Source: Micromonospora chaiyaphumensis
GTDB lineage: Bacteria > Actinomycetota > Actinomycetes > Mycobacteriales > Micromonosporaceae
Assembly: GCF_900091435.1 (NCBI RefSeq)
Contig: NZ_FMCS01000004.1
Location: 310,001 to 374,000 of the forward strand
Direction of reading: 5' to 3'
DNA: 64,000 bases
The notes below the pieces were generated by a model, which did no database searches, was not told the origin of the DNA, and saw nothing but the letters and a program-made list of their open reading frames with translations. Positions 41,146 through 59,157 of the stretch are shown here, in pieces; position 1 is the stretch's first letter, and every line of letters begins with the position of its first letter. A program made the translations under genes and the position numbers.

Positions 41146-41169
41146 CGCCCCCCGGCACGCTTTTCCGAC

Positions 41170-43278: not shown

Positions 43279-44753
43279 CCGAGCGCATCGTGATCGTGGG
43301 ATACGGCATGGCGGGCGCCCGCCTCGCCGCCGAGCTGCACGCCCGGGGCGGGGACCGGAAGGTGACCGTGCTCGGGGCGGAGCCGCACCGGGCGTACAAC
43401 CGGATCCTGCTCTCCACCCTGCTCGCCGGGAAGATCGGCGAGCCGGACGTCGAGCTGGTCGAGGTCGCCGGGCAGGGCGCGGACGTCCGCACCGGGACCG
43501 CGGTCACCGCGATCGACCGGGCCGCGCGGGAGGTACGCACCGCCGACGGCGACCGGCACGGCTACGACCACCTGGTCCTGGCCACCGGCAGCCGCGCCCT
43601 CGTGCCACCGCTGCCCGGGCTCGAGCCGCTGCCCGACCGGGTCGTCCCGTTCCGCACCCTGGACGACTGCCGGCGGATCCTCGCCGCCGCCCGGGGCGCC
43701 CGCCGGGCGCTGGTGCTCGGCGGCGGGCTGCTCGGGCTGGAGGCGGCCCGCGGGCTCGCCGCCCGGGGCCTCGACGTGACCGTGGTGCATCCCGTCGGGC
43801 ACCTGATGGAACGGCAGCTCGACGAGCCGGCCGGTGCGGTCCTCGCCGGCACCCTCGGCGGGCTCGGGGTACGCACCCGGCTGGGCGTCACGGCGACCGG
43901 GGTGGCCGCCGACGCCGACGGGATCCGCCTCGACCTCGGCGACGGCGATTCCCTCACAGCCGACCTGCTGGTCCTCTCCTGCGGCGTACGCCCCGACACC
44001 GCCCTGGCGGCCGCCGCCGGGCTGGCCGTGGACCGGGGCGTGGTGGTGGACGACCGGATGCGGACCAGCGACCGGCGGATCTCGGCCATCGGCGACTGCG
44101 CCCAGCACAACGGCACGCTGACCGGGCTGGTCGCCCCGGCGTGGGCGCAGGCCCGGGTGGTGGCCGAGGTGCTGACCGGCGCCGACCCGCTGGTCCGCTA
44201 CCGGCCCCGGCCGGTCGTCACCCGACTCAAGGCGGCCGGGATCGACCTGGCCGCGATGGGCGACGCGGCGGGCGCGCCGGACGGGGGCGGGCCGGTCGAG
44301 GAGCTGACCTTCGCCGACCCGGCCCGGGGCACGTACGCCCGGCTGCGGATCCGCGACGAGCGGCTGACCGGGGCGATCCTGCTCGGCGACAACCCGGCGG
44401 TCGGCACCGTGGTGCAGCTCTTCGACCGGGGCGCGCCGGTGCCGTCGGACCGGCGCTCACTGCTGCTCGGGCGGGCGTTCGGCGCCGCACCGGCCGCCCC
44501 CGCCGCGTCCCCGGCGCTGATGCCGGACGCGGCCACGGTGTGCCAGTGCAACGACGTGAGCAAGGGCGCGCTGGTGGCGTGCTGGCGCGCCGGCGCCCGG
44601 TCCGCCGCGGAGCTGTCCGCGGCCACCCGGGCGGCCACCGGGTGCGGCGGCTGCCGGGACGCGGTGGCCGGCATCGCCGGCTGGCTCGCCGAGGTGGATC
44701 CGGCGGCGGGACACCAGGAACCGAGTACGGACCGTGTGGAGGTGGCGGGATGA
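43275..44753 (+). CDS. Nitrate reductase electron-transfer flavoprotein (NasB-like)
   Basis: A 492-residue FAD/NAD(P)-dependent oxidoreductase with the N-terminal dinucleotide fold IVGYGMAGARLA, a second fold VLGGGLLGLEAARGL, and GDCAQHNGTLTG. A C-terminal BFD-type [2Fe-2S] domain is marked by CQC and CGGC (VCQCNDVSKGAL ... TGCGGCRD). It resembles the NirB N-terminal half and Bacillus NasB, and probably feeds electrons from NAD(P)H to nitrate reductase. ATGA overlaps link it to both neighbours. Confidence 0.88.
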   Translation: MTERIVIVGYGMAGARLAAELHARGGDRKVTVLGAEPHRAYNRILLSTLLAGKIGEPDVELVEVAGQGADVRTGTAVTAIDRAAREVRTADGDRHGYDHLVLATGSRALVPPLPGLEPLPDRVVPFRTLDDCRRILAAARGARRALVLGGGLLGLEAARGLAARGLDVTVVHPVGHLMERQLDEPAGAVLAGTLGGLGVRTRLGVTATGVAADADGIRLDLGDGDSLTADLLVLSCGVRPDTALAAAAGLAVDRGVVVDDRMRTSDRRISAIGDCAQHNGTLTGLVAPAWAQARVVAEVLTGADPLVRYRPRPVVTRLKAAGIDLAAMGDAAGAPDGGGPVEELTFADPARGTYARLRIRDERLTGAILLGDNPAVGTVVQLFDRGAPVPSDRRSLLLGRAFGAAPAAPAASPALMPDAATVCQCNDVSKGALVACWRAGARSAAELSAATRAATGCGGCRDAVAGIAGWLAEVDPAAGHQEPSTDRVEVAG

Positions 44754-47263
44754 GCGGCGGCAGGCTGGTGGTCGTCGGCAACGGCATGGTCGGGCAGCGC
44801 TTCGTCGAGGCGCTGCGGGCCCGGGACCAGGAGCGGCGCTGGCGGGTCACGGTGCTCGGCGAGGAGCGGCGGCCGGCGTACGACCGGGTGCGGCTCTCCG
44901 CCTTCTTCGACGGGGTGAGCGCCGAGGATTTGAACCTGCACAGCCCCGACGACGGGGTGGAGCTGCGGCTGGGCGAGCCGGCGCTGGCCGTCGACCGGGC
45001 GCGGCGGATCGTACGGACCGCGAGCGGCGAGCACCCGTACGACGCGTTGGTGCTGGCCACCGGCTCGTCGGCGTTCGTACCCCCGATCGACGGCACGGAC
45101 CTGCCGGGCGTCTTCGTCTACCGGACGCTGGACGACCTGGCGGCGATCCGGGCACACGCGGCGGGCCGGCGCACCGGTGCGGTGATCGGGGGCGGGCTGC
45201 TCGGCCTGGAGGCGGCGAACGCGCTGCGCCTGCTGGGCCTCGCCACCAGCGTGGTCGAGTTCGCGCCGCGGCTGATGCCCGTGCAGGTGGACGAGGCGGG
45301 CGGGGCGATGCTCCGCCGCTACGTCGAGGAACTGGGCGTCACGACGTACCTCGGGGTGGCCACCAGCGCACTGCGCCCCGGCCCGGACGGGACGGTCGGC
45401 GCGCTGGAGCTCGCCGACGGGCGCACGGTCGGGGCGGACCTGGTCGTGGTGGCCGCCGGCATCCGGCCCCGGGACGAGCTGGCCCGGGCGGCCGGCCTGC
45501 CGCTCGGCCCGCGCGGCGGCGTGCTGGTCGACGCGGGCTGCCGGACGGCGGACGAGCGGATCTGGGCGGTCGGCGAGTGCGCCGCCGTGGAGGGCACCTG
45601 TCACGGCCTGGTCGCCCCCGGCTACGCGACCGCCGAGGTGGTCGCCGACCGGCTGCTCGGCGGGGCGGCCACCTTCCCGGGCGCCGACACCGCCACCAAG
45701 CTCAAGCTGCTCGGGGTGGACGTGGCCTCGTTCGGCGACGCGCACGGCGTCTCCCCGGGCTGCCTCGACGTCACCTTCACCGACCCGGCCACCCGCGCGT
45801 ACGCGAAGCTGGTCCTCTCCGACGACGCGACGACGCTGCTCGGCGGCGTGCTGGTGGGCGACGCGAGCGCGTACCCGACGCTGCGGGCGAGTGTCGGCGG
45901 CCCGCTGCCCGCTCCCCCGCTGGCGCTGCTGGCCCCGGCGGGCGGCGCGGGCGCCGGGGCCGGTGCGCTGCCGGCCGCCGCGCAGGTCTGCTCCTGCAAC
46001 GCGGTGACCCGGGCCGATCTGGACGCGGCGATCGCCGGCGGGGCCACCGACGTGCCGGCGCTCAAGGCGTGCACCCGGGCCGGCACGAGCTGCGGCTCCT
46101 GCGTGCCGATGCTCAAGCAGCTCCTCGACGCGGCCGGGGTGGCGCAGTCCCGGGCGCTCTGCGAGCACTTCGACACCGGCCGGCAGGAGCTGTTCGACAT
46201 CGTCCGGGTCCGGGGCATCCGCACCTTCTCCCAGCTCATCGCCGAGCACGGGCGCGGGCGCGGCTGCGACATCTGCAAGCCGGTGGTCGCCTCGATCCTC
46301 GCCTCGCTGGGCACCGGGCACGTGCTCGACGGCGAGCAGGCGTCCCTTCAGGACACCAACGACCACTTCCTGGCCAACCTGCAACGCGACGGCAGCTACT
46401 CGGTGGTGCCGCGGATCCCGGGCGGTGAGATCACCCCGGAGAAGCTCATCGTGATCGGCGAGGTGGCACGGGACTTCCGGCTCTACACCAAGATCACCGG
46501 CGGCCAGCGGATCGACCTGTTCGGCGCCCGGGTCGAACAGCTCCCGCAGATCTGGCGCCGGCTGGTGGACGCGGGCTTCGAGTCCGGCCACGCGTACGGC
46601 AAGGCGCTCCGCACGGTGAAGTCCTGCGTCGGCGCGACCTGGTGCCGGTACGGGGTGCAGGACTCGGTGGGGCTGGCCGTCGCGCTGGAGCTGCGGTACC
46701 GGGGGCTGCGCGCCCCGCACAAGCTGAAGTCGGCGGTCTCCGGCTGCGCCCGGGAGTGCGCCGAGGCCCGGAGCAAGGACTTCGGCGTCATCGCCACCGA
46801 GACCGGCTGGAACCTCTACGTCGGCGGCAACGGCGGCTTCCGGCCCCGCCACGCCGACCTGTTCGCCACCGACCTGTCGACGGAGGCGCTGATCCAACTG
46901 ATCGACCGGTTCCTGATCTACTACATCCGCACGGCCGACCGGTTGCAGCGCACCGCCGCCTGGATCGAGGCGATGGACGGCGGCCTCGACCACCTCCGGT
47001 CGGTGCTCGTGGACGACTCGCTGGGGCTCTGCGCCGATCTCGACGCGGCCATGGCGCGGCACGTCGCCGGCTACTCCGACGAGTGGCGGGACGTGCTGGA
47101 GGACCCGGAGCGGCTGCGCCGCTTCACGTCCTTCGTCAACGCCCCCGACGTGCCCGACCCGTCCATCACCTTCGCCGTGGAGCGCGGCCAGCCGGTGCCC
47201 ACCCGGGGCGCCGACGGCCGCCGCCAGCCGGTCGCGCTGGGCCTTCCGGGGGTACGGCGATGA
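44750..47263 (+). CDS. nirB: NAD(P)H-dependent assimilatory nitrite reductase, large subunit
   Basis: An 837-residue NirB that reduces nitrite to ammonium. In order it has an FAD fold (VVGNGMVGQRFVEAL), an NAD fold (VIGGGLLGLEAAN), a BFD [2Fe-2S] domain (VCSCNAVTRADLD ... SCGSCVPML), a ferredoxin-like half, and the siroheme/[4Fe-4S] domain. The cluster ligands appear as CVGATWC and CARECAEA. Length is normal for NirB. It overlaps the upstream flavoprotein gene and, by ATGA, nirD. Confidence 0.97.
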   Translation: MSGGRLVVVGNGMVGQRFVEALRARDQERRWRVTVLGEERRPAYDRVRLSAFFDGVSAEDLNLHSPDDGVELRLGEPALAVDRARRIVRTASGEHPYDALVLATGSSAFVPPIDGTDLPGVFVYRTLDDLAAIRAHAAGRRTGAVIGGGLLGLEAANALRLLGLATSVVEFAPRLMPVQVDEAGGAMLRRYVEELGVTTYLGVATSALRPGPDGTVGALELADGRTVGADLVVVAAGIRPRDELARAAGLPLGPRGGVLVDAGCRTADERIWAVGECAAVEGTCHGLVAPGYATAEVVADRLLGGAATFPGADTATKLKLLGVDVASFGDAHGVSPGCLDVTFTDPATRAYAKLVLSDDATTLLGGVLVGDASAYPTLRASVGGPLPAPPLALLAPAGGAGAGAGALPAAAQVCSCNAVTRADLDAAIAGGATDVPALKACTRAGTSCGSCVPMLKQLLDAAGVAQSRALCEHFDTGRQELFDIVRVRGIRTFSQLIAEHGRGRGCDICKPVVASILASLGTGHVLDGEQASLQDTNDHFLANLQRDGSYSVVPRIPGGEITPEKLIVIGEVARDFRLYTKITGGQRIDLFGARVEQLPQIWRRLVDAGFESGHAYGKALRTVKSCVGATWCRYGVQDSVGLAVALELRYRGLRAPHKLKSAVSGCARECAEARSKDFGVIATETGWNLYVGGNGGFRPRHADLFATDLSTEALIQLIDRFLIYYIRTADRLQRTAAWIEAMDGGLDHLRSVLVDDSLGLCADLDAAMARHVAGYSDEWRDVLEDPERLRRFTSFVNAPDVPDPSITFAVERGQPVPTRGADGRRQPVALGLPGVRR

Positions 47264-47598
47264 GGACGCTGGACTGGACGGCCGTCTGCCCGCTGGACCG
47301 GCTGGACCCGGACCGGGGCGTGGCCGCCCTGGTCGATGGTGTGCAGGTGGCGCTCTTCCGCACCGGCGACGAGCTGTACGCGGTCGACAACCTCGACCCG
47401 GTCGGCGGCGCGCAGGTGATGTCCCGGGGCATCGTGGGCAGCCGCGGCGGCCTGCCGACGCTCGCCTCCCCGCTGCACAAGCAGGTCTACGACCTGACCA
47501 CCGGGCGGTGCCTGGACCTCCCGGACGTGGCGTTGCGGCGGCACGACGTGCGCTGCCGGGACGGCCTCGTCGAGGTGCGGTTGCGACAGGAGGAGTGA
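47260..47598 (+). CDS. nirD: Nitrite reductase small subunit
   Basis: A 112-residue Rieske-fold protein. As usual for NirD the Rieske cluster ligands are missing: the CxH site reads as DNLDP and the CxxH site retains only the histidine in SPLHKQVYDL. It therefore has a structural rather than redox role in the NirBD complex. It ends one base into the next gene's start (TGATG). Confidence 0.95.
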   Translation: MRTLDWTAVCPLDRLDPDRGVAALVDGVQVALFRTGDELYAVDNLDPVGGAQVMSRGIVGSRGGLPTLASPLHKQVYDLTTGRCLDLPDVALRRHDVRCRDGLVEVRLRQEE

Positions 47599-48686
47599 TG
47601 CGCGAGGAACTGGCGGGCTTCACCATCGGGGTCACCGCGGACCGGCGACGCGACGAACTGGCCGCCCTGCTCCAGCGCCGCGGTGCGCGGGTGGTGCTCG
47701 CCCCGGCGCTGCGGATCGTGCCGCTGGCCGACGACACCGACCTGCGCGAGGCCACCCGGGCCTGCCTGGAGCGCCCGCCGGACGTGCTCATGGCCAACAC
47801 CGGGATCGGGATGCGCGGCTGGCTGGAGGCGGCCGAGGGCTGGGGGCTCGCGGAGCCGCTGCGCGGCGTGCTGTCCCGGTCGTACGTGGTGGCGCGCGGT
47901 CCCAAGGCCACCGGGGCGATCCGGGCGGCCGGGCTGCGCGAGCACTGGTCCCCCGCCTCGGAGAGCTGCGACGAGGTGGTCGAGCACCTGGTCCGGCGCG
48001 GGGTGGCCGGCCAGGTCGTCGCGCTGCAACTGCACGGGGAGCGGCAGCCGGAGTGCACCGAGGCGCTGGAGTCCGCCGGGGCCACGGTGATCGAGGTGCC
48101 GGTCTACCGCTGGGCGCCGCCCACCGACCCGGCGCCGCTGCACCGGCTCATCGACCTGGTCGCCGGGCGGATGGTCGACGCCGTCACGTTCACCTCCGCC
48201 CCGGCGGCCGAGGCGCTGCTGCGGGCGGCCGGTGACCGTACCGAGACGGTGCTGGCGGCGCTGCGCGGGGACGTGCTGGCCGGCTGCGTCGGCGCGGTGA
48301 CCGCCGAGCCGCTGGTGCGGCGGGGGGTGCCGGTGAGCGCACCGAACCGGGCCCGGCTCGGCGCCCTGGTCCGGACGATCGTCGACGAGCTGCCCCGCCG
48401 GACGGTGACCGTGAAGGCGGGCGGGCACCTGCTGACCCTGCGCGGCCACGCCGCGGTGGTGGACGGCGAGCTGCGCCCGCTCGCGCCGGCGCCCATGGCG
48501 GTGCTGCGGGCGCTCGCGGCCGCGCCGGGGAAGGTGCTGTCCCGGACCGCCCTGCTGCGTACCCTGCCCCGGGGCGCGGACGAGCACGCGGTGGAGATGG
48601 CGGTCGCCCGCCTGCGGGTCGGGCTCGACGCCCCCCGCGTGGTGCAGACCGTGGTCAAGCGCGGCTACCGGCTGCGGGTCGACTGA
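47598..48686 (+). CDS. Uroporphyrinogen-III synthase-like protein fused to a winged-helix DNA-binding domain
   Basis: A 362-residue fusion. Residues 1 to about 255 form a HemD-type domain (FTIGVTADRRRDELAALLQR ... VALQLHGERQPE ... TFTSAPAAEALL). The last 95 residues form an OmpR/PhoB-type winged helix (APAPMAVLRALAAAPGKVLS ... VVKRGYRLRVD). Comparable fusions occur near nitrite reductase and nitrate transporter genes in mycobacteria. It may supply tetrapyrrole for NirB siroheme, sense it and regulate, or both. The start follows AGGAGG and touches the nirD stop. Confidence 0.9.
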   Translation: MREELAGFTIGVTADRRRDELAALLQRRGARVVLAPALRIVPLADDTDLREATRACLERPPDVLMANTGIGMRGWLEAAEGWGLAEPLRGVLSRSYVVARGPKATGAIRAAGLREHWSPASESCDEVVEHLVRRGVAGQVVALQLHGERQPECTEALESAGATVIEVPVYRWAPPTDPAPLHRLIDLVAGRMVDAVTFTSAPAAEALLRAAGDRTETVLAALRGDVLAGCVGAVTAEPLVRRGVPVSAPNRARLGALVRTIVDELPRRTVTVKAGGHLLTLRGHAAVVDGELRPLAPAPMAVLRALAAAPGKVLSRTALLRTLPRGADEHAVEMAVARLRVGLDAPRVVQTVVKRGYRLRVD

Positions 48687-48705: not shown

Positions 48706-49323
48706 TCAGCCGACCGGGGCCGCGAAGCCGTGCTCGGCCTGGAGGCGGAGCATGGCGTGCTCGACAACGGTCACCAGCACCTGCTTGACCGAGTCGCGCC
48801 GCCGAGCGTCGCACATCACGAGCGGCACGTCCGGCGAGATCGCCAGCGCCTCGCGGACCTCCTCCAACTCGTACTGCGGCGCGTCGTCGAACCGGTTCAG
48901 CGCCACCACGTACGGCAGGTTGCGGTTCTCGAAGTAGTCCAGCGGCGCGAAGGCGTCGGTGATCCGGCGGGTGTCCACCAGCACGGCCGCGCCCACCGCG
49001 CCCCGGATGATCTCGTCCCACATGAACCAGAAGCGGGTCTGGCCCGGCGTGCCGAAGAGATAGAGGATCAGGTCCTCGGCCATGGTGATCCGGCCGAAGT
49101 CCATGGCGACCGTGGTGGTCTCCTTGCCGGGCACCTTCGACGGGTCGTCGATGCCGACGCCGGCCGCCGTCATCAGCGCCTCGGTGGTCAGCGGCTGGAT
49201 CTCGGAGATCGCGCCGACCAGGGTCGTCTTGCCCACCCCGAAGCCGCCCGCGATGACGATCTTCGCGGAGATGATCTCCCGGCTGCGGTTCGCCCCCGCG
49301 GGGTCATAGTTCGCGAAGTCCAC
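48706..49323 (-). CDS. Conservon GTPase (CvnD-type, MglA-like)
   Basis: A 205-residue small GTPase with P-loop GGFGVGKT (26-33) and switch II FGTPGQTRF. It is the output component of the conservon signalling complex, thought to work at the membrane with the kinase-like, roadblock and DUF742 proteins. It overlaps the DUF742 gene by 20 bp. The convergent HemD-fusion gene ends only 19 bp away. Confidence 0.93.
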   Translation of the reverse strand: MDFANYDPAGANRSREIISAKIVIAGGFGVGKTTLVGAISEIQPLTTEALMTAAGVGIDDPSKVPGKETTTVAMDFGRITMAEDLILYLFGTPGQTRFWFMWDEIIRGAVGAAVLVDTRRITDAFAPLDYFENRNLPYVVALNRFDDAPQYELEEVREALAISPDVPLVMCDARRRDSVKQVLVTVVEHAMLRLQAEHGFAAPVG

Positions 49324-49666
49324 TTAGCACCCTTCCAAGCAGGTTCATCCGCGCCGCGAACCCTGTGGCGGGAGCGGCGGTGTGTAGCGTCAGCAGGCCC
49401 TCGGCCACCATGTCGGCGACCAGCACCCGGGTGACGCCCAGCGGCATCCGGGTGTAAGCGGCGATCTCCGCCAGCGACTGTGCCCGGCCCTCACAGACCG
49501 AGGCGATGCGGTACTTGTCGTGCCCGGCGAACCGCGCCTCGGCCGACTGGGTGGGCGTGCAGGACAGCACCGCCTCGAGCGCGATGTTCTGCAACGGCTC
49601 GGTGCGGCCACGGGTGACCGCGTACGGCCGCACCAGCGCGCCACGCGGATCTCGTCGTGGTTCCAT
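49304..49666 (-). CDS. Conservon DUF742 protein (CvnC-type)
   Basis: A 120-residue DUF742 protein, with LVRPYAVTRGRTEP near the N-terminus and a winged-helix-like segment (AEIAAYTRMPLGVTRVLVADM). It is the third conservon gene and overlaps the GTPase gene. It is thought to associate with the kinase-like component. A 66-bp spacer separates it from the roadblock gene. Confidence 0.93.
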   Translation of the reverse strand: MEPRRDPRGALVRPYAVTRGRTEPLQNIALEAVLSCTPTQSAEARFAGHDKYRIASVCEGRAQSLAEIAAYTRMPLGVTRVLVADMVAEGLLTLHTAAPATGFAARMNLLGRVLSGLREL

Positions 49667-49732: not shown

Positions 49733-50140
49733 TCAGGGCCGGACGGCGTCCCTCGGAAGCGGGACCAGCGCCTGGCCGACCCGTTCCACCAGCAGCGCCA
49801 TCTCGTAGCCCACCTGACCGACGTCGCAGCTCCGCGCGGCCAGCACGGCCATCGACGAGCCGTCGCTGATCGACATGAGGAACAGGTAGCCGCTGTCCAT
49901 CTCGATGACGGTCTGGAGCACCCCGCCGGCGCTGAACATCCGGGCGGCGCCCTCGGTCAGGCTCACCACGCCGGAGGTGATCGCGGCGAGCTGGTCGGCC
50001 CGATCCCCCGGCAGGTCGCGGGAGGAGGCGAGCAGCAGCCCGTCCGCGGACACCGCCACCACGTGGGCGATGCCCGCCACGCTGTCGGCGAAGTTGGTGA
50101 GCAGCCAACCCATGTCCTGCATGGCCGCTGGCCTGTTCAT
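49733..50140 (-). CDS. Conservon roadblock/LC7 protein (CvnB-type)
   Basis: A 135-residue roadblock/LC7-domain protein (WLLTNFADSVAGIAHVVAVS ... DGLLLASSRDLP ... GYLFLMSISDGSSMAVLA). Such proteins act as GTPase-activating or scaffold partners of the MglA-like GTPase. The start overlaps the kinase stop by 4 bp. Confidence 0.93.
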   Translation of the reverse strand: MNRPAAMQDMGWLLTNFADSVAGIAHVVAVSADGLLLASSRDLPGDRADQLAAITSGVVSLTEGAARMFSAGGVLQTVIEMDSGYLFLMSISDGSSMAVLAARSCDVGQVGYEMALLVERVGQALVPLPRDAVRP

Positions 50141-53100
50141 CGGTTCGTCTCCTTGGTCGAGGTGCTGTTCAGGTCCGCGCCGGCCGTCCGACCCCGCTGC
50201 ACACCGCGGTGGTAGGCCGACAGCAGGCCGCGTACTTCGTCCGGGGTGCGCCGGGCGGTGGCCCGGCCTCCCTTCGGTTCGATACCGCCGGGCACGAGCT
50301 GGGCCTGCGGCACCCGCTTCGGCAGGCCGGAACGGGTGGTGCCCGCGTTGCTGGGCTCCGCGGCCCGGCTGGCCCGCGACCATCCCTCGTCGGCCGCCGT
50401 GCGCCAGGCCTCCGGGTCGATGGGCGGCGGTGCCGGGGTCGGCGGGGGTACGGCCGCGGCGCGTGGCGCGGTCGGAACCGCCGGCGGGGTGTACGGGGGT
50501 GGCGTGCTCAACCCCGCCGACTGGGCGCCCGGGGTGCGGGTCGGCAGCGGCGGCAGCGGCGACCCGGCGGGCTGGGCCGGGGCGGCCGGCTGCGCGGACG
50601 CGGCGGGCTGCGCCGGCTCGTCGTCGAACCGGGGGCGGGTGAAGATCGTGGTCTCGTCCTCGCCGTGCGAGCGGAACCAGACCGCCTCCATCTCCCGGAA
50701 GATCGGTGCCTCGGCGGGCCGGCCGGACCGGGCCACCACCGGGGCCGCCGCCGCGGGGTCGACCGCCGGGGCGGCCGGCTGGTAGGCCGGCGGCGCCGCC
50801 GGGGCCGGGGCCACGGTCGCCGCCTCGCCGCCCGGCGTCCGGTGGGGCAGCGGGTCGAGGGCGGGGTTCGCGACCGTCGACCCACCCGCCGACCAGCCGG
50901 CACCGGAGATGGAGGCGGGGACGGGCGGCGCGGAGGCGACCGGCGCGGGCGCCGGCACGGTGGGCAGCGCGCCGGTCGCGCCGCCGAACTGCACGGGCGA
51001 GGCGGTGTCGCGGGCCTCGGCCGGCGCCTGCCAGCGGGCGGGCGGCGGGGTGGCGGTGCTGCGCCACTGGTCGGCCAGCGTGGCCGTGCCGGCCCGGCCC
51101 GCGCCGGCCAGCGCATCGGCGGCGCCGACCTGGCTGAGCGGGGACTGCTCGACGGCGAGCGGCTGGCGCGGGCGGGTGAGCGGGGCCTGGCCCCGGTTCG
51201 CCGGCAGCACCACGGTGGCGTTCGGCAGGGTGACCTGGGCGACGGTGCCGCCCTCGACGTTGCGGCGCAGCTCGACCCGGATCCCGTAGCGCGAGGCGAG
51301 CCGGCTGACCACGGCCAGACCCATGAGCCGGAACGCGGCCACGTCGACCGTGGGCGGGGCGGCCAGCCGGCGGTTCAGCGAGTCGAGCTGTTCGTCGCTG
51401 AGCCCCAGGCCGCGGTCCTCGACCTGGATCAGCACGTAGTCGCGGATCCGGCGGCCGTCGGCCACCACGATGGTGTTCGGCGGCGAGAACCGGGTGGCGT
51501 TGTCGAGCAGCTCGGCGACCAGGCGGACCACGTCGTTGACGGCGTGCGCGGCCACCGAGATGTCGGTGTCGACCGTGCCGAACTCGATCCGGTTGTAGAG
51601 CTCCACCTCGGACTGGGCGGCACGCAGCACGTCGACCAGGAGCGCGTCGTCACGGCGCGGCACGGCCGAGTCGGCGCCGGCCAGCACCAGCAGGTTCTCG
51701 TCGTTGCGGCGCATCCGGGTGGCCAGGTGGTCCAGCTCGAAGAGCTGGGCCAGCCGCTTCGGGTCCTCCTCGCCGCGCTCGATCGCGTCCAGCTCGCCGA
51801 TCATCCGGTCGACCAGGCTCTGCGAGCGGCGGGCCAGGTTGAGGAACATCGCCGAGACGCTGGTCCGCAGCGCGGCCTGCTCGGCCGCCACCCGGACCGC
51901 CTCCCGGTGGACCACGTTGAAGGCCGACGCCACCTGGCCGACCTCGTCGCGGTTGGTCAGCTTGATCGGGTCCCGCACCTGCTGGACGATCTCGTCCACG
52001 CCGCCGTCGCCGATGGCGTTGACGTTCTGGAGCCGGCTCACCGCGTCGGGCAGGTCGTGGTTCGCCACGGCCAGCGCGCCCTCGCGCAGCCGGCGCAGCG
52101 AGTCGTTGAGCGAGCGGGCCAGCACCACGGCCAGCGTCACGGCCACGGCCAGGGTGAGCAGCACCAGCAGGCTCTCCACGACCGCCTGCCGGATGACGTC
52201 GCTGCGCACCGCGTCGACGTCGGCGAGCAACTGTTCCTGGAGCTGGATCTCGGCCCACCGCATCAGGTCACCGACCGCGCCGATGGCCGCGGCGGCCTCG
52301 TCCCGGGTGACCAGCGGCGTCTGCCCGACCGAGCGGGAGAAGTCGTTGGCGACCCGGTCGCCGAGCTGCACGGCGTCGCCGGAGACGGTGCCGTCCACGA
52401 GGGACCGTTGGGCCGGCTCGGCGGCCCGGGAGAAGGACAGCAGGGCCTCCTGCTGGCCGGTCAGGGTGGCCACGAACGAGGAGAACTGCTCCTCGTCGAT
52501 CCGGCCGGTGTCGAGCGCGGTGAAGGCGACCGCCTCCTCCTCGGCGACCTCCGCCTTGGCGTGTGCGAAGGCGGCCACCGCGCGGCGGGCGTCGGCGAGG
52601 CCCTCCGCGCCGGGCTGCTGGGCCAGCGTGTCGCCGTACGCGACGAGGTCGTCGAGAATGATGCCGTAGCGCAGGCTCGCCTCGGAGACCGGCATCTGCT
52701 GCCGGTCCAGCACCTCCTGGCGCGTGCCGTTGAGGGTCTCCAGGTGGTCGTCGATCACCTTGAGCCGGTCGCGCACCGAGGCCGGCACGTCGCCGAGCTT
52801 CCCCCGCTCGTCCCGGTAGGCCGCGATCCGCTCGTCGGTGCTGCGGACCCGCAGGTTGTAGGCGTCCGGCTTCTGGTTGGGCGCGACCAGGAAGGAGGCC
52901 GCGGCCATCCGCTCCTTGTGCAGGTCCTGGGTGAGCGCCGAGACGTCGATCGACAGCGCGGTCAGCGATCGCATCCGGTTGGCCTCGTAGGCGCCCTCGC
53001 CGACCGAGACGAGTCGGATAGTTGCCAGTGCGATGACAGCCGCCACCGGAACGACGAGGATGAGGGCGAGCTTGGAGCGGATCCGCGCGTCACGCAGCCG

Positions 53101-53172
53101 AGGCAGTCGCCGTCGCCGGTTCCGCTGATCGGCGTCGGGGCTCTCGGGCAGGGTCGTAGGTCCGGTGCTCAC
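50137..53172 (-). CDS. Conservon sensor histidine kinase-like protein with NIT domain (CvnA-type)
   Basis: A 1011-residue membrane sensor. It has a first helix at about 30-52, an extracytoplasmic nitrate/nitrite-sensing (NIT) domain to about 325, a second helix (about 327-355) and a HAMP domain. Next come a dimerisation region (SVSAMFLNLARRSQSLVDRM) and an HATPase_c domain (LLDNATRFSPPNTIVVAD, then DRGLGLSDEQ). The last 350 residues are Pro/Ala-rich and poorly ordered. No cognate response regulator is adjacent. The GTG at 53172 follows GGAGG by 7 bp. It is the first of four overlapped or closely spaced conservon genes. Confidence 0.92.
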   Translation of the reverse strand: MSTGPTTLPESPDADQRNRRRRLPRLRDARIRSKLALILVVPVAAVIALATIRLVSVGEGAYEANRMRSLTALSIDVSALTQDLHKERMAAASFLVAPNQKPDAYNLRVRSTDERIAAYRDERGKLGDVPASVRDRLKVIDDHLETLNGTRQEVLDRQQMPVSEASLRYGIILDDLVAYGDTLAQQPGAEGLADARRAVAAFAHAKAEVAEEEAVAFTALDTGRIDEEQFSSFVATLTGQQEALLSFSRAAEPAQRSLVDGTVSGDAVQLGDRVANDFSRSVGQTPLVTRDEAAAAIGAVGDLMRWAEIQLQEQLLADVDAVRSDVIRQAVVESLLVLLTLAVAVTLAVVLARSLNDSLRRLREGALAVANHDLPDAVSRLQNVNAIGDGGVDEIVQQVRDPIKLTNRDEVGQVASAFNVVHREAVRVAAEQAALRTSVSAMFLNLARRSQSLVDRMIGELDAIERGEEDPKRLAQLFELDHLATRMRRNDENLLVLAGADSAVPRRDDALLVDVLRAAQSEVELYNRIEFGTVDTDISVAAHAVNDVVRLVAELLDNATRFSPPNTIVVADGRRIRDYVLIQVEDRGLGLSDEQLDSLNRRLAAPPTVDVAAFRLMGLAVVSRLASRYGIRVELRRNVEGGTVAQVTLPNATVVLPANRGQAPLTRPRQPLAVEQSPLSQVGAADALAGAGRAGTATLADQWRSTATPPPARWQAPAEARDTASPVQFGGATGALPTVPAPAPVASAPPVPASISGAGWSAGGSTVANPALDPLPHRTPGGEAATVAPAPAAPPAYQPAAPAVDPAAAAPVVARSGRPAEAPIFREMEAVWFRSHGEDETTIFTRPRFDDEPAQPAASAQPAAPAQPAGSPLPPLPTRTPGAQSAGLSTPPPYTPPAVPTAPRAAAVPPPTPAPPPIDPEAWRTAADEGWSRASRAAEPSNAGTTRSGLPKRVPQAQLVPGGIEPKGGRATARRTPDEVRGLLSAYHRGVQRGRTAGADLNSTSTKETNR

Positions 53173-53619
53173 GACATCGCCTCCGTCGTTTCTTCCACGC
53201 TTGACCCGCCGACCCGTGCCTGGTGCAGCGGCCAGCGCCACGCGCGGCACGGCCGCGATTTCATCAGACGAGATCGTGTTTGGGAAGCGGCAGTGAGGCA
53301 CGAAACGGTCGGGGCCGACGCACCCCGTGATCCGATCACCTAATACCTTCTTTTCTCCAGCCCCCTGAACAGGGCATGTAACTCCAGAGTGGTCAGACGT
53401 ATCTGCGCAGTAATTGTCGGTTAACGTTCCGTGTCCCCAGCATGTGGGACGGCCGTCCCGAAACCGCTCCCGACATCCGCGCTTGACCACGGGGCTCGGC
53501 ATTGGCAAGGTTTTGCAGGCTTCGCGCACACCGTACGGCACACCAATCCCGTTCCTCCACTGAGGACGGACGAGCGGCGGTGATCGGGCGCTGGCCCGCG
53601 CCGCACCTGGAGGACTGAG
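53173..53619. promoter_or_regulatory. 447-bp divergent regulatory region with three palindromes
   Basis: No gene is supported. The region is noticeably less G+C-rich than its surroundings. It contains a perfect 13-bp palindrome GTGATC-C-GATCAC (53327-53339), CCCTG-AA-CAGGG (53363-53374), and a perfect 14-bp palindrome GGGACGGCCGTCCC (53446-53459). It lies between the conservon and the solute-binding-protein gene and must hold both promoters. Confidence 0.55.
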
Positions 53620-54801
53620 TTGAGCCCCATCCGCTCCGCGAGCATCGCGGTGCTCGCATCGGCCGTGCTGGCCGCCTCGCTCACCGGCTGCGGGATCGGC
53701 GGGGAACCGCAGGACACCAGCCCGATCGTGATCGCCGCGGACCTGGAACTGTCCGGCGCCTCCGCGACGATCGGCAAGGTGTACCAGCGGGCCCTGGAAC
53801 TGAAGGTCGAGCAGTTGAACTCCTCCGGCGCGCTGGGTGGCCGGAAGATTGAACTTAAGGTGAAGGACAACCGCTCCGACGCCGCCGAATCGTTGCGCAA
53901 CATCAACGATTTCAGCGCTGACTCGCGAGTCAGCGCCATCATCATGGGCGGCTGCAACGAATGTGCGATCGGCGCCGTCCGCACGATCGGCGAGAAGCGC
54001 ATTCCCACCGTCGCGCTCGCCTCCTCCCGGGAGGTCACGGAACCGGTCGCCGATCGCCGCTATGTCTTCAAGCTGGCGCCGAATGCCGCCGACAGCGCCG
54101 CCGCACTCACCGCCGAGTTGCTCCGCCGCAACATCCGCAAGGTGGCCGTGCTGCACAGCGCCGACAAGTACGGCGAGGAGGGGCTGGCCGCGTTGAACAG
54201 CGAGTTCACCAAGGCCGGCATCCGGTTGGCCCGGGCCGAGTCGGTGCGGACCACCGACACGGAGGTCAGCACCCAGATCGACAGCCTGGTCACCAAGAAG
54301 CCCGACGCGCTGATCGTCTGGACCCCGCCGGAGCAGGCGGCGCTGGCGGCCTCCACCGCCCGGCAGAGCCGCTACGCCAAGCCCCTCTTCTTCGACGCCT
54401 CGGCGGCCGGCGACCTCTTCCTGGGCGCCTCCGCCCGGTCGACCGAGCAGGCCACGCTGATCTTCACCCAGACCATGGTGATCGACGACGTCATCGCCAC
54501 CACCCCGGCCAAGGCCGCCCGGCGGCAGTGGTTCCAGGAATACACCGCCCGGTTCGGCGGCTACAACGGCTACTCGTCGTTCGCCGCGGACGCCGTCCAG
54601 CTCATCGCCGACGCCGAGCTGCGGTCCGGCAGCGAGCCGGGCGAGGTGGACCGGGGCGCCCTGCGCGAGGTCCTGGAGACCGCCCAGCTCGACGGCCTCT
54701 CCGGGCCGATCCGGATGACCCCGGACAACCACTCGGGCCTCATGCCGCAGGCGTTGACCACGCTCGTCGCCCGCGGTGGCCGCTGGCGCCTGGCGGGTTG
54801 A
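53620..54801 (+). CDS. Orphan ABC-type solute-binding lipoprotein (branched-chain amino acid/amide class)
   Basis: A 393-residue periplasmic-binding-protein type 1 of the Leu/Ile/Val-urea-amide class. Its lipobox ends at Cys24 (SLTGCG). Both lobes are present, and a CNEC motif lies at about residue 112 (GGCNECAIGAVRT). The TTG start has GGAGG 6 bp upstream. No permease or ATPase of the matching class is nearby. It is divergent from the conservon kinase, so it may act as a ligand-capturing partner of that sensor rather than in transport. This is inference. Confidence 0.85.
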   Translation: MSPIRSASIAVLASAVLAASLTGCGIGGEPQDTSPIVIAADLELSGASATIGKVYQRALELKVEQLNSSGALGGRKIELKVKDNRSDAAESLRNINDFSADSRVSAIIMGGCNECAIGAVRTIGEKRIPTVALASSREVTEPVADRRYVFKLAPNAADSAAALTAELLRRNIRKVAVLHSADKYGEEGLAALNSEFTKAGIRLARAESVRTTDTEVSTQIDSLVTKKPDALIVWTPPEQAALAASTARQSRYAKPLFFDASAAGDLFLGASARSTEQATLIFTQTMVIDDVIATTPAKAARRQWFQEYTARFGGYNGYSSFAADAVQLIADAELRSGSEPGEVDRGALREVLETAQLDGLSGPIRMTPDNHSGLMPQALTTLVARGGRWRLAG

Positions 54802-54853: not shown

Positions 54854-55693
54854 TCAGCGGGCCGAGGTGGTGGCCCGCACCCAGGGCAGGGCCAGGCGCT
54901 CGACGAGGCTGAGGGCCGAGTAGAGCAGGATGCTCATCACCGCCACCAGCACGATCGCCGCCCACGCCGTCGCGGTGTCCCCCTGGCCGTTGTACTGGAG
55001 GATCTGGTAGCCCAGCCCGGGCCGGTCCGAATAGAACTCGCCGATCACCGCGCCGATCGCGGCCAGCGGCATGGCCACCTTCAGCCCGACGAAGATCTGC
55101 GGCAGCGCGGCCGGGAGACGCACCTTCCGGAACGCCTGCCACCAGGACGCGTTCAGCGAGCGGCCCAGCTCGGCCAGGTCGGCCGGGGTGGTGGTCAGCC
55201 CGGTCGCCGTCGACAGCACGATCGGGAAGAAGCACAGCAGGAACACCATGGTCAGGATGGGCTTCTGCCCCCAGCCCACCGCGACGACCAGCAGCGGACC
55301 GAAGGCGATCTTCGGCACCGCGTTGACCGCCACCAGCAGCGGGGCGAACATCCGCTCCACCCGGCTGGAGGCGGCCAGCGCCATTCCGATCAGCACCCCG
55401 GCGAGCGTCGAGAGCAGGAAGCCGAGCAGGGTCATCCAGGTGGTGATGCCCAGCGCCGGCAGCAGCACGTCGGTGGTGCCGACCAGCGAGCGCCACACCG
55501 CCTGCGGTGGCGGCAGCGCGGCCGGGTGCACCAGGTGCAGCCCCGACGTGACCAGCCACCAGGCGGCCACCGCGATGACGAGCCCGAGCGCCGGCAGGCC
55601 CACCGCCGCCGGGCGTACGGCGCGCCGGCGCGCAGCGGCGGCGGGCTCCGCCGGCGCCGGCGTCTCGGCCCGGGTCCCGGTCAACTGCGTCAA
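54854..55693 (-). CDS. ABC transporter permease, SsuC/ThiX/TauC class
   Basis: A 279-residue permease with about six membrane segments and the cytoplasmic coupling EAA-like region around LNASWWQAFRKVRLPAALPQIF. The class imports sulfonates, taurine, nitrate or thiamine precursors. The TTG at 55693 is chosen because GGAGG lies 5 bp upstream; the frame is open further but the added residues are implausible. It is co-directional with and downstream of the binding-protein gene, with a strong hairpin between. Confidence 0.88.
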   Translation of the reverse strand: MTQLTGTRAETPAPAEPAAAARRRAVRPAAVGLPALGLVIAVAAWWLVTSGLHLVHPAALPPPQAVWRSLVGTTDVLLPALGITTWMTLLGFLLSTLAGVLIGMALAASSRVERMFAPLLVAVNAVPKIAFGPLLVVAVGWGQKPILTMVFLLCFFPIVLSTATGLTTTPADLAELGRSLNASWWQAFRKVRLPAALPQIFVGLKVAMPLAAIGAVIGEFYSDRPGLGYQILQYNGQGDTATAWAAIVLVAVMSILLYSALSLVERLALPWVRATTSAR

Positions 55694-55735
55694 CGTGTCC
55701 TCCTCTCTCGGCCGGCCCGACGACCGGCACGCGAA

Positions 55736-55776
55736 GGGGGTGCGCCCCACCGGGTCTCCCGGCGGGGCGCACCCCC
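55736..55776 (-). promoter_or_regulatory. Strong intercistronic hairpin between binding-protein and permease genes
   Basis: Perfect 13-bp outer arms (55736-55748 with 55764-55776) enclose a perfect 5-bp inner stem CCGGG/CCCGG with loop TCT. It lies 19 bp past the binding-protein stop and about 43 bp before the permease start. Confidence 0.65.
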
Positions 55777-55794
55777 GTTGCCCGAGCCGACCGG

Positions 55795-56826
55795 TCAGGC
55801 CTTCGGCGCGAGGTTGAAGTCGATGATCTGGTCGGGGGTGAGGTTCTGCTTGAGCGCGCCCGCGCCCTGAAGCAGCGCGATGCTCTTGGCGACCCGGCCG
55901 CTGTCCAGCGTGCCGATGGCGGTGCCGGAGTTGCTGGAGCGGACGTACGCGGCCATGAGCTGGAGCTCGGCGGCGGACGCGGCCGGGTTGGCGGCCGGCA
56001 CGTTCTTCTTCAGGAGCTCGCCCGCCTCGTCCGGGTGGGCCAGCGAGTATTCCAGGCCCTTGAGCAGCGCCGCGGTGAAGCGCTTGACCATCTCCGGCTT
56101 CTCCTTGGCGATCTTGCTGGAGGTGATCAGCACGTTGCCGTAGAGGTCCTGCATCACGTTGCTGTAGGGCAGCACGACCGGCTTCTTCTTGGCCACCGCC
56201 TCGACGGTGGGCTGGCCGACCACGAACTGGCCGATGCCGTCGACCGCGCCGGAGCCGAGCATGCCGATGAGGCCCTGCGCCTCGCCGTTGACCCAGGTCA
56301 CCTTGCTGCCGTCGATACCGGCCAGCCGGGCGTACGTCGGGAAGAGGTTGCGCACGACGGAGGTGGGCGTGTCGGCGAGCTTCTTGCCCTCGAGGTCCTT
56401 CGGGGTGGCGATCTTCTTGCCCTCGACGGAGACGATGGCGGCCATGGTGCGCTGCTGGATCGCCGCCACCGCGACGAAGTCCTTGGCCTGGCCGTTGCCG
56501 AGCTGGAGGATGCCGCCGGTCAGGTCGATCGGGCCGAAGTCGGCCTGGCCGCCGGTGATGGTCTGGATGACCGAGCCGGTGCCCTGCCCGGGCTTGATGT
56601 CGACGTCGAAGCCGGCCTCCTTGAAGAAGCCCTTCTCCTTCGCCACCCAGGCGTAGGAGTCACGGCCGAAGTTGCCGAACGAGGTGAGGTAGGTCACCTT
56701 CTCCAGCGCCGCGCCGTTGCCGGTCTTGGCGTCCTCCGACTTGTCCGAGTCGCTGCTGCAACCGCCGACGAGGGCGAGGGCCGTGGCCAGTGCCGCGGCG
56801 GCGACCGAACGGGTCAGCCTTCTCAT
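55795..56826 (-). CDS. ABC transporter substrate-binding lipoprotein, NMT1/SsuA-ThiY class
   Basis: A 343-residue periplasmic-binding-protein type 2 with a lipobox at Cys23 (LVGGCSSD). The NMT1-like core includes KGFFKEAGFDVDIKPGQGTG, GGQADFGPIDL and FTAALLKGLEYSLAHPDEA. Family members bind alkanesulfonates, pyrimidine precursors of thiamine (ThiY) or related small compounds. The ligand is undetermined. It is the first gene of the minus-strand half of a divergent ABC locus. Confidence 0.88.
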   Translation of the reverse strand: MRRLTRSVAAAALATALALVGGCSSDSDKSEDAKTGNGAALEKVTYLTSFGNFGRDSYAWVAKEKGFFKEAGFDVDIKPGQGTGSVIQTITGGQADFGPIDLTGGILQLGNGQAKDFVAVAAIQQRTMAAIVSVEGKKIATPKDLEGKKLADTPTSVVRNLFPTYARLAGIDGSKVTWVNGEAQGLIGMLGSGAVDGIGQFVVGQPTVEAVAKKKPVVLPYSNVMQDLYGNVLITSSKIAKEKPEMVKRFTAALLKGLEYSLAHPDEAGELLKKNVPAANPAASAAELQLMAAYVRSSNSGTAIGTLDSGRVAKSIALLQGAGALKQNLTPDQIIDFNLAPKA

Positions 56827-57113
56827 CAGTGCACCATGTCCTTTCCGACCAGGGCATGTTCGCCCGGTCGGGTCGTGGGTCCGACGGTGTCGGCAGGAGG
56901 GGGCAGCCGACGGGACCGTCGTGAGGGGACTCTTCGCGCGCAACAGCGTACGAGAAGGCCGATGACGGCAGGCGGGCGTACGGGTTGCGGAACGGAAACG
57001 AAGTTGCCTGACGGAAAGGAGACTGACGTCCACCCTGGATGGTGCTATGAGGAGCGCCGCCCGCTACGCTAGCCCGGCTCGCGATCGCGACCTTGGAAGG
57101 GAGCCGGCGACAG

Positions 57114-57899
57114 ATGATCCGACTGTCCGGGGTGTCCCGCACCTTCGACGGCCGTTCGGGCCGGGTCGAGGCGCTGCGCGGCATCGACCTCGACGTCGCC
57201 GAGGGCGAGTTCGTCGCGGTACTGGGCCGCTCCGGGTGCGGCAAGTCCACCCTGCTCCGCATGATCGCCGGCCTGCTCCCGGTCAGCGACGGTGAGATCA
57301 CCGTGGCCGGCACGCCGATCACGAAGCCCCGCCGGGACATCGCCATGCTGTTCCAGCGGCCCGCCCTGCTGCCCTGGCGGACGGTGCTCGACAACGTCCT
57401 GCTGCCGGTGGAGATCTTCGGCTGGAGCCGGGCGAAGCACCGCGACCGGGCCCGCGAGCTGCTGGAGATGGCCGGGCTGGGCGGCTTCGAGAAGCGCCTC
57501 CCGCACGAGCTCTCCGGCGGCATGCAGCAGCGGGTCTCGCTCTGCCGGTCACTGATCGGCGAGCCCCGCGTGATGCTCATGGACGAGCCCTTCTCCGCGC
57601 TCGACGCGCTCACCCGCGAGGAACTCTCCGGCGAGCTCCAGCGGGTGCACATGGAGACGAAGGCGACCATCGTCTTCGTCACCCACTCGATCGACGAGGC
57701 GGTGCTGCTCGCCGACCGGGTCGTCGTGCTCAGCCCGCGCCCCGGCCGGATCCGCGAGGTGGTCGAGGTGGCCGTGCCCCGGCCCCGCACCCTGGGCCGC
57801 CACGCGCACCTGGCCGAGGTCGCCCGGATCAGCGCCGAGCTGCACGAACTGCTGATGGAGCGCGACGCCACCGGCGGCGTCGTCGCGGGAGGGCGGTGA
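57114..57899 (+). CDS. ABC transporter ATP-binding protein, SsuB/TauB/ThiZ class
   Basis: A 261-residue ATPase with Walker A GRSGCGKST, signature ELSGGMQQRVSL, Walker B VMLMDEPFSALD and switch His in VTHSIDEA. It completes the importer whose permease and binding protein are encoded divergently. The ATG at 57114 is preferred over an upstream in-frame TTG because GGAAGGGAG lies about 10 bp before it. It is joined to the next gene by a GTGA overlap. Confidence 0.9.
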   Translation: MIRLSGVSRTFDGRSGRVEALRGIDLDVAEGEFVAVLGRSGCGKSTLLRMIAGLLPVSDGEITVAGTPITKPRRDIAMLFQRPALLPWRTVLDNVLLPVEIFGWSRAKHRDRARELLEMAGLGGFEKRLPHELSGGMQQRVSLCRSLIGEPRVMLMDEPFSALDALTREELSGELQRVHMETKATIVFVTHSIDEAVLLADRVVVLSPRPGRIREVVEVAVPRPRTLGRHAHLAEVARISAELHELLMERDATGGVVAGGR

Positions 57900-58852
57900 C
57901 CATGCGGGTGTCCGTCTTCACCGAGCCGCACCGCGGGGCCAGCTACGACGACCAGCTCCGGTTCGCCCGGCTGGTCGAGGAGACCGGCTTCGAGGGGTTC
58001 TTCCGGGCCGACCACTACCGGGCCATGGGCGACGAGCCCGGGCTGCCCGGCCCCACCGACGCGTGGCTGACGCTCGCCGCGCTGGCCCGGGAGACCTCCC
58101 GGATCCGGCTCGGCACCCTGGTCACCTCGGCCACCTTCCGGCTGCCCGGGCCGCTGGCCGTGCTGGTCGCCCAGGTCGACCAGATGAGCGGCGGCCGGGT
58201 CGAGCTGGGCATCGGCGCCGGCTGGTACGAGCGCGAGCACACCGCCTACGGCATCCCCTTCCCGGCGGTCACCGAACGGTTCGACCGGCTGGCCGAGCAG
58301 CTGGAGATCGTCACCGGGCTGTGGCGGACACCGCCCGGCGAGACCTACAGCTTCACCGGGGACCACTACCGGCTGGTCGACGCACCCGCGCTGCCCAAGC
58401 CGGTGCAGCAGCCCGGCCCGCCGGTGATCGTGGGCGGCCGCGGCCCGAAGCGCACCCCCGAGCTGGCCGCCCGGTACGCCGACGAGTTCAACATGCCGTT
58501 CAAGACCGTCGGTGAGACGGCCGCCGCGTACGAGCGGGTCCGCGAGGCGTGCGACCGGACCGGACGCGCCGCGTCGGGACGGCCGCCGCTCGTGCTCTCC
58601 GCCGGCGTCGTCGTGGCGATCGGGCGCACCGACGCGGACGCCCAGCGCCGGGCCGCGCCGCTGCACGTCAAGAGCGCGCTCCCGCCGGAGGACCCGGTGG
58701 TCGGCTCCCCCGCCCAGCTCGTCGACCGGCTCGGTGAGTTCGCCGCGATCGGGGCCACCCGGGTGCACCTGCGGCTCATCGACTTCGACGACCTCGACCA
58801 CGTGGAGCTCATCGCCGCCGAGGTGCTCCCCCAACTGGACGGACCAGGATGA
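57896..58852 (+). CDS. Luciferase-like (LLM) flavin/F420-dependent oxidoreductase
   Basis: A 318-residue TIM-barrel protein of the luciferase-like monooxygenase superfamily, actinobacterial F420-dependent branch by appearance (RVSVFTEPHRGASYDDQLRF, GTLVTSATFRLPGPLAV, GIGAGWYEREH). It may oxidise the compound imported by the neighbouring ABC system, for example by desulfonation or ring opening. The GTG at 57896 overlaps the ATPase stop; an ATG at 57902 is possible. The cupin gene overlaps its 3' end. Confidence 0.88.
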   Translation: MTMRVSVFTEPHRGASYDDQLRFARLVEETGFEGFFRADHYRAMGDEPGLPGPTDAWLTLAALARETSRIRLGTLVTSATFRLPGPLAVLVAQVDQMSGGRVELGIGAGWYEREHTAYGIPFPAVTERFDRLAEQLEIVTGLWRTPPGETYSFTGDHYRLVDAPALPKPVQQPGPPVIVGGRGPKRTPELAARYADEFNMPFKTVGETAAAYERVREACDRTGRAASGRPPLVLSAGVVVAIGRTDADAQRRAAPLHVKSALPPEDPVVGSPAQLVDRLGEFAAIGATRVHLRLIDFDDLDHVELIAAEVLPQLDGPG

Positions 58853-59157
58853 CCGAACTCTCCGCCGACCTCGAACTCGGCCCGGTGGGCCAGGAGATCG
58901 TCTTCGAGAACGACCGGGTACGCGTCTGGCACATCCGCCTGGCGCCGGGCGAGCGGCAGCCGCTGCACCGGCACGACCACCCGTATCTGGTGGTGGCCGT
59001 CGAGGGCGCGAAGAACGTGGTGCAGACCATCGACGGCACGACGATCGACGCCGACGAGCCGACCGGTGGGGTGGTCTACCGCGACCCCGGCGCCGTGCAC
59101 ATGCTGACCAACGTCGGTGACACCACGTACCTGGCCCGGCTGGTCGAGCTTAAGTAG
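58849..59157 (+). CDS. Small cupin-domain protein
   Basis: A 102-residue single-domain cupin. The first metal-binding motif region reads PLHRHDHPYLVVAVEG and the second PGAVHMLTNVG. Small cupins act as dioxygenases, isomerases or ligand sensors. Overlap with the luciferase-like gene (ATGA) suggests a step in the same pathway. The substrate is unknown. Confidence 0.87.
   Translation: MTELSADLELGPVGQEIVFENDRVRVWHIRLAPGERQPLHRHDHPYLVVAVEGAKNVVQTIDGTTIDADEPTGGVVYRDPGAVHMLTNVGDTTYLARLVELK

Follow-up and report, generated by a model that had tools for sequence, protein, structure and literature searches.

A solute-binding protein (SBP) gene and the gene of a NIT-bearing conservon kinase form a real, family-wide, and recurrent pair. 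The pairing suggests that the SBP feeds a chemical signal to a Ras-like switch through the kinase, by way of a protein contact that we infer. The reading in which this lipoprotein is the dedicated sensory SBP of a conservon three-component system, with docking on the kinase as a predicted step, is given a probability of about 0.55. A recurrent SBP–NIT pairing would give the NIT-bearing CvnA class a concrete candidate input, and it would tie a Ras-like switch of bacteria to the uptake of nutrients and perhaps to nitrogen assimilation. The stretch of DNA that was analyzed, hereafter the window, is 64,000 nucleotides long and is part of contig C8 of a 6.74-Mb Micromonospora chaiyaphumensis genome.

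The Lipoprotein and the Conservon

The SBP gene (53620–54801, plus strand) begins with a TTG start codon and encodes a 393-residue protein of the Peripla_BP_6 type (Pfam, E = 2.5e-36). The lipobox LTGC, with Cys24 as its cysteine, is found in 112/112 aligned SBPs, which classifies the protein as a bacterial lipoprotein by sequence only. The structure model of the SBP (pLDDT 74.1, pTM 0.77) is weak at residues 1–29, 279–295, and 357–393, and its nearest folds are those of aromatic-acid binding proteins. The closest is 3uk0 (Z 36.5 over 336 residues, rmsd 2.7), and a phmmer search with the SBP reached 4dqd at E = 4e-22. These Peripla_BP_6 proteins from Rhodopseudomonas palustris (PDB 3uk0, 4f8j, and 4dqd) are the closest in fold, but are only about 20% identical to the SBP and are titled transport proteins. 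Nitrate was considered as the SBP ligand and found to be unsupported; the nearest folds of the model bind aromatic acids.

The CvnA-type sensor kinase is encoded on the opposite strand (50137–53172, minus strand) and contains a NIT ectodomain (E = 6.4e-36; Pfam stretch 79–315), a weak HAMP match, and a HATPase domain. It is followed on the same strand by CvnB (Roadblock/LC7; 49733–50140; PF03259, 2.1e-23), whose start overlaps the cvnA stop as read from the sequence, by CvnC (DUF742; 49304–49666; PF05331, 3.7e-27), and by the Ras-like small GTPase CvnD (48706–49323; PF03029, 6.9e-32; PF00071, 3.6e-04, slightly short of the cut-off). Read leftwards, this ordered cvnA-B-C-D set is, according to Pfam, a complete conservon, or actinobacterial G-protein system (AGPS). 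The C-terminus of CvnA carries an LPxR tail, GLPKRVPQAQLVPG, and a C-terminal LPxR motif has been described for CvnA (PMC4316618).

A search of the same genome returned nine NIT matches and four matches to the divergent SBP. On contigs C14 and C15 (L100 and L101), two NIT kinases are found with a roadblock gene, with no cvnC or cvnD match.

On its other side, the conservon adjoins a nitrate assimilation neighborhood (38208–48686) that consists of an MFS transporter, which is presumably NarK-like, a Mo oxidoreductase, an FAD oxidoreductase and a NirD-like ORF (both assigned by eye), NirB, and a HEM4+Trans_reg_C gene. The last of these is NnaR-like and ends 19 bp from cvnD. A homologue stands beside cvnD in 49/58 loci with CvnD in the set L014–L093 (two of the 49 being weak), in 15/27 of L166–L197, and in 8/9 of L199–L207, with some loci ending early. 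M. smegmatis needs NnaR for the use of nitrate and nitrite (PMC6277429).

Distribution of the Gene Pair

SBP matches at E ≤ 1e-15 were found in 205 of 250 family genomes, a count that includes paralogues and Liv-type relatives. The gene layout was examined for the best 150 SBP and the best 150 kinase matches of these 250 genomes. Among the matches listed, a kinase lay within 6 kb of the SBP in 140/150 cases, all 140 of them divergent, with a median gap of 451 nt between the match ends. The divergent co-occurrence with conservon kinases, which the original prediction had proposed to count, was thus borne out among these listed matches and within one family.

Ten listed SBP matches had no kinase match beside them. 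One lies at a contig edge (G427), and three are other SBPs, found with LivH and LivM (L191 and L192) or with an ABC ATPase match only (L190). No kinase match was listed for G352, G387, G373, G333, G354, and G367, and when the loci of G373 and G333 were fetched, the kinase was found adjacent to the SBP. Likewise, ten of the 150 listed kinase matches had no adjacent SBP match. G427 again represents a contig edge, the SBP is present outside the listed matches in G315 and G317 (L207 and L206), and in G384 (L201) it is split over two frames, as it also is in L089. The other six listed kinase loci (G424, G437, G451, G460, G501, and G529) have no SBP and keep both cvnA-D and the NnaR-like gene. Since these six loci retain the conservon, the kinase does not need the SBP there.

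In the sample of the class, the SBP was matched in 17 of 296 genomes. Outside the genus, LivH or LivM matches accompanied the SBP relatives in 15/15 loci (L123–L137; 15 of 16 such matches were fetched), and conservon matches were found beside them in 0/15 of these loci from the class sample. The pair itself remains divergent even where SBP identity falls to about 46%, with variable flanks around it: the NMT1 module is inverted or dispersed, and the NnaR-like gene is unseen in 12/27 loci, some of which end early. A lasting association between the gene of an SBP and that of a kinase with an ectodomain is one mark of SBP-coupled sensor kinases, and the 140 divergent listed matches show it.

The Intergenic Region

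The divergent arrangement of the SBP and kinase genes and the 447-bp gap between them, both stated in the original prediction, were confirmed. The gap measures 437–464 nt in 77 of the 79 related loci whose sequence extends to the kinase. All 79 use TTG as the start codon of the SBP and GTG as that of the kinase; L072, whose contig ends before the kinase, was left out. The three palindromes that had been said to occupy the gap are all present (53243–53257, 53327–53339, and 53446–53459), but only the first is conserved, as the exact palindromes occur in 71, 5, and 5 of 80 aligned regions, respectively, with the window included. The conserved palindrome, CGCGGCACGGCCGCG, lies within a kinase-proximal conserved block (53243–53268) and is held by 71/80 regions. 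The one at 53446–53459, GGGACGGCCGTCCC, is unconserved as a palindrome (exact in 5/80, with GGGAC-N4-GTCCC in 18/80), and exact counting ruled it out as a conserved operator. Inverted repeats with arms of at least 6 nt numbered 4, compared with 2.1 ± 1.7 in 500 dinucleotide shuffles (P = 0.19), and those with arms of at least 5 nt numbered 14, compared with 7.8 in 500 such shuffles (P = 0.046). The palindromes were rejected as a special operator region, as arms of at least 6 nt are not enriched and two of the three palindromes are unconserved.

The conserved feature of the gap is, as judged by alignment, a promoter for the lipoprotein gene (53482–53511, plus strand), with a −35 element TTGACC, a 17-nt spacer, and a −10 element CAAGGT (CTTGACC-N15-GGCAAGGT). 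This sequence is present in 75/80 aligned intergenic regions. The same spacing recurs in 23 of 32 SBP-bearing loci from other genera, one more has a spacing of 23, and the remaining loci keep one promoter half, or neither, exactly. A simple sigma-70 scan of the region returned no promoter, and the promoter was found only by the comparison across genera. Neither promoter half was found in the six SBP-less loci (0/6), whereas the TTTCATC of the kinase-proximal block is present upstream in 6/6 of them; the SBP and kinase genes therefore seem, from these patterns, to have separate promoters. As the whole SBP–importer block is absent from the SBP-less loci, the absence of the promoter shows which gene it belongs to, and not the cause of the loss.

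A 35-nt element that extends from the −10 element into the leader (53504–53538, plus strand) is exact in 50/80 regions. Its first 21 nt, with one N, occur once in the genome at up to three mismatches, and a search for RNA elements gave no Rfam match to the 35-nt element up to E = 1. The conservation of this element exceeds what a promoter alone would need.

The Kinase Ectodomain and Its Co-Variation with the Lipoprotein

Residues 1–345 of the kinase were modeled as all helical (pLDDT 87.9), and the ectodomain model superimposes on NasR (4akk) with a Z of 31.5 over 273 residues (rmsd 3.1), which points to a NIT fold. NasR has both nitrate-site arginines (PMC8199190), and the helix-5 residues E175 and R176 are predicted pocket residues (PMC7496416). 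In our own alignment, the helix-1 arginine (Arg88) is kept in 116/117 kinases, and the position of the NasR helix-5 arginine is occupied by Glu in 76 and by Gln in 41 of the 117 (Glu213 in the window kinase). The nitrate site, with one NasR arginine each on helices 1 and 5, is thus incomplete, and NasR-style nitrate binding by the kinase appears unlikely because the helix-5 arginine is replaced in 117/117 aligned sequences.

In the six SBP-less kinases, the NIT domain departs further from that of the window kinase than expected from the kinase core (6/6; z −0.6 to −2.3), and 9/62 conserved NIT positions are changed in all six, versus 3/170 HK positions; the six represent two genera only, so that these counts are not independent.

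Family-wide, the full partial correlation of distances between the SBP and NIT is 0.69 (bootstrap 0.57–0.76) in the 79 loci, from 112 SBP matches, that have all nine proteins or domains. In the same 79 loci, the values for the SBP with the seven other proteins or domains, including the fast-evolving NMT1-type binding protein (NMT1sbp) and permease, range from −0.10 to 0.11. In a set of 88 that leaves out short fragments, the L191 and L209 kinases, and the L190, L191, L192, and L201 SBPs, the SBP–NIT correlation given HK is 0.88, and the SBP–HK correlation given NIT is 0.15. In the Micromonospora set alone (n = 54), the SBP–NIT partial correlation is 0.15 (0.07–0.25), and the values for SBP–NMT1sbp (0.49), SBP–HK (0.38), and SBP–ATPase (0.32) are all above it. 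If some of the NMT1 genes are non-orthologous, the family-wide value may be too high. The co-evolution signal in these sequences, supportive across the family and weak within the genus, is suggestive only.

Paralogous Pairings

Three of the four SBPs in the genome adjoin a NIT kinase with a roadblock gene. Contig C3 carries a gene for a paralogous SBP (32% identity) that converges with cvnD-C-B-A. This type was matched in 53/150 genomes, and in the best 30 loci, it is convergent with cvnD and cvnC in 30/30; the NIT kinase was also observed at two loci, L094 and L122. In these 30 loci, the 1.5-kb flanks of the C3-type SBP contain no match to the transporter genes that were queried. Outside the genus, there are two weak matches only (28%) in the 296 class genomes.

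Directly upstream of the C3-type SBP, a protein with a CvnA-type tail, GLPKRVPQANLVPG (LPxR), is encoded in 30/30 C3-type loci (L218–L247) and on contig C3 itself (L094:1424–3808), where the copy has no Pfam match. The tail of the conservon kinase is present here as a separate copy.

On contig C7, cvnA, cvnB, an SBP gene, livH, livM, and ATPase genes follow one another on one strand. The order cvnA-cvnB-SBP-livH-livM is found in 2/7 loci, the second being from another genome of the genus. L213 and L214, from another family, have SBP-livH-livM without cvnA or cvnB, and L215–L217 have the SBP alone. The C7 locus (L095:5949–13467) is an apparent operon in which the genes of a NIT kinase and a roadblock protein are combined with a full Liv-type transporter set; neither cvnC nor cvnD was matched there. 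In G355 (L191/L209), an SBP–Liv operon is divergent from a NIT conservon, a layout that suggests how a transporter SBP could be recruited to a conservon.

One genome thus offers three testable SBP–kinase protein pairs, with interface residues predicted. As a tentative extension that we hold slightly below even odds, the three SBPs (divergent, convergent, and in the Liv operon with cvnA-cvnB) would represent a general and hitherto undescribed extracytoplasmic input of conservon NIT kinases, each SBP serving a kinase of its own, and ligand-loaded SBPs, not nitrate, would drive the GTPase switches in this family.

The Adjoining Importer

The original prediction described the SBP as lacking a permease and an ATPase. 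This holds for Liv-type partners at the locus: the protein has the Peripla_BP_6 fold of a Liv-type (HAAT) SBP, but LivH, LivM, LivG, and LivF are not encoded alongside it, the adjoining permease is BPD_transp_1/TauC-like, and no LivH or LivM match was found in 80 related loci. It does not hold for transport in general, as an NMT1/TauABC-type importer begins 52 bp past the SBP stop codon; because of this linkage, the SBP is an orphan relative to Liv partners and not relative to transport genes.

The first gene of the importer cassette (54854–57899) is convergent with the SBP gene and encodes an ABC permease (54854–55750, minus strand; BPD_transp_1, TauC/SsuC/NtrB-like, with NCBIfam matches below the cut-off). 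It is accompanied by NMT1sbp, an NMT1/SsuA-type binding protein (55795–56829, minus strand; PF09084, 6.4e-39) that is taken to be the importer's own SBP, and by a TauB/NtrCD-like ABC ATPase (57114–57899, plus strand; Pfam/NCBIfam). An F420-type luciferase-like monooxygenase (57896–58852, plus strand; TIGR03560, 290.7 bits, above the cut-off) follows, with a small protein beside it (58849–59157, plus strand) that we take to be cupin-like.

Among the SBP-bearing loci laid out from other genera, the NMT1-type ATPase is near the SBP in 32/32, a count that excludes L191, which has a Liv operon. In L193 and L194, there appears to be a 4-nt overlap between the SBP gene and the ATPase gene, whose start was placed by homology; the distance in L195, a partial match, was left out. 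In L180, L181, and L184, the order SBP-NMT1sbp-permease-ATPase is co-directional, with 41–67 nt between the first two genes. The SBP, permease, NMT1sbp, ATPase, and monooxygenase had no match in the six SBP-less loci, from which the SBP and the cassette are missing together, as one block. From this joint absence, and from the apparent overlap of the SBP and ATPase genes in two loci, the SBP may belong to transport. In L202–L205, which lack the SBP, an ORF close to the start of the kinase gene was recognized by eye as the membrane protein that lies at 59214 in the window; L199 has a weak match to this protein. When the SBP-less genomes were searched with the importer's SBP, G437 and G451 gave no match at E = 1e-20; the match was 30% in G424 and G529 and 46–47%, at another place in the genome, in G460 and G501. 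In four SBP-bearing genomes searched alongside, it was 63–90%.

Relation to Known Systems

The TorT–TorS system is proteobacterial. Its structure (PDB 3o1h) likewise shows a helical sensor domain with an SBP bound, and 114 residues of TorS align with the kinase ectodomain at an rmsd of 2.9 and a Z of 7.2, a value within the warning range of the tool for helical bundles. This similarity was considered as evidence for SBP docking and, at a Z of 7.2 only, was not counted.

In the GlnH–GlnX–PknG system of Mycobacterium and Corynebacterium, an actinobacterial SBP lipoprotein has similarly been proposed to report ligand occupancy to a helical-bundle transmembrane sensor (PMC6069109, PMC9769921). GlnH, however, binds Asp or Glu and is related to glutamine-transport SBPs (PMC6069109, PMC9769921), and the output is a Ser/Thr kinase with no conservon GTPase module; according to a figure legend in PMC9769921, the interaction between GlnH and GlnX is undemonstrated. 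In CuaD–CuaS–CuaR, a second SBP lipoprotein acts as a sensor with a histidine kinase, while the CuaABC importer has its own SBP (PMC10384115). That system differs in having a cellobiose SBP and an ordinary two-component output, and is found in Ruminiclostridium (PMC10384115).

Among conservons, sensory input components are described as largely unexplored (introduction of PMC13343842). CvnF8 and CvnE are alike in being extra proteins with a genetic link to a conservon, for which a role in sensory input has been proposed, but they are GAF or P450 proteins, and the accessory inputs studied in that work accompany NIT-less kinases (PMC13343842), whereas an extracytoplasmic SBP and a NIT-bearing CvnA are found here. 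The SBP thus does not belong to the CvnE/CvnF type, which is defined by a NIT-less CvnA and by a P450 or GAF protein encoded four genes away from cvnA. The main text of PMC13343842 makes no mention of the terms lipoprotein, solute-binding, substrate-binding, or periplasmic, and PMC4316618 makes none of solute- or substrate-binding; in the open-licence literature searched, we came across no report of an SBP serving as the input of a conservon.

Proposed Mechanism and Alternatives

In the proposed mechanism, the SBP would be lipid-anchored outside the membrane and would bind a small ligand, for which an aromatic or keto-acid type of carboxylate is the likeliest candidate. The ligand-bearing SBP would dock on the helical NIT ectodomain, and the signal would pass from the kinase through CvnB, CvnC, and CvnD to the expression of the importer and monooxygenase cassette; the conservon would perhaps also set the expression of the adjoining nitrate assimilation genes. 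Because the importer has its own SBP, the divergent SBP would work like CuaD beside CuaABC. The proposal that the lipoprotein presents its ligand to the kinase ectodomain, as originally put forward, fits this picture, and a mechanism close to the known SBP–kinase systems is plausible by analogy. Counting for it are the family-wide adjacency, its recurrence in other layouts, the SBP–NIT co-variation across the family, the altered NIT domains of the SBP-less kinases, the incomplete nitrate site, and the link to the importer. Counting against it are the near loss of that co-variation within Micromonospora, the persistence of the kinase without the SBP, and the joint absence of SBP and cassette, together with the apparent overlap of the SBP and ATPase genes.

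The SBP might instead be a second or accessory receptor of the NMT1-type importer, held near the conservon by a shared regulatory intergenic region and making no contact with the kinase. The presence of the NMT1-type ATPase near the SBP in every one of the 32 loci of other genera, the apparent 4-nt overlaps and the co-directional gene orders, the absence of the cassette along with the SBP, and, within Micromonospora, the strongest co-variation with NMT1sbp are all consistent with such a role. We nevertheless consider it unlikely, though a serious contender, given that the importer already has its own SBP, that the Peripla_BP_6 relatives outside the genus are accompanied by LivH/LivM in all 15 fetched loci, and that SBP paralogues stand beside other conservons, in the C3 case without the queried transporter genes in the flanks.

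Inherited synteny, in which the SBP serves a Liv-type permease encoded at another locus and the divergent layout was simply handed down, is improbable. The genome does encode Liv-type transporters elsewhere (the C7 and C14 loci), and, in the samples searched, the pairing occurs in a single bacterial family only, but the pair has stayed divergent at low SBP identity though its flanks change, and synteny is a weaker account because the two paralogous SBP–conservon pairings have other layouts. We also regard it as improbable that the NIT kinase senses nitrate or nitrite directly, with the SBP having no part in the conservon: the conservon does abut the nitrate cluster and the NnaR-like gene, which is present in all six SBP-less loci, and Arg88 is nearly invariant, yet the second nitrate-site arginine of NasR is Glu or Gln in every kinase, and the NIT domain has diverged further at the loci without the SBP, despite the presence of the NnaR-like gene.

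A Conserved Cysteine Pair

A CxxC pair is unusual for a Peripla_BP_6 protein. One such pair (Cys112/Cys115, within SBP residues 93–115, window 53896–53964) is present in 111/112 SBPs of the group, and the SBP of L197 has T and G at the two cysteine positions.
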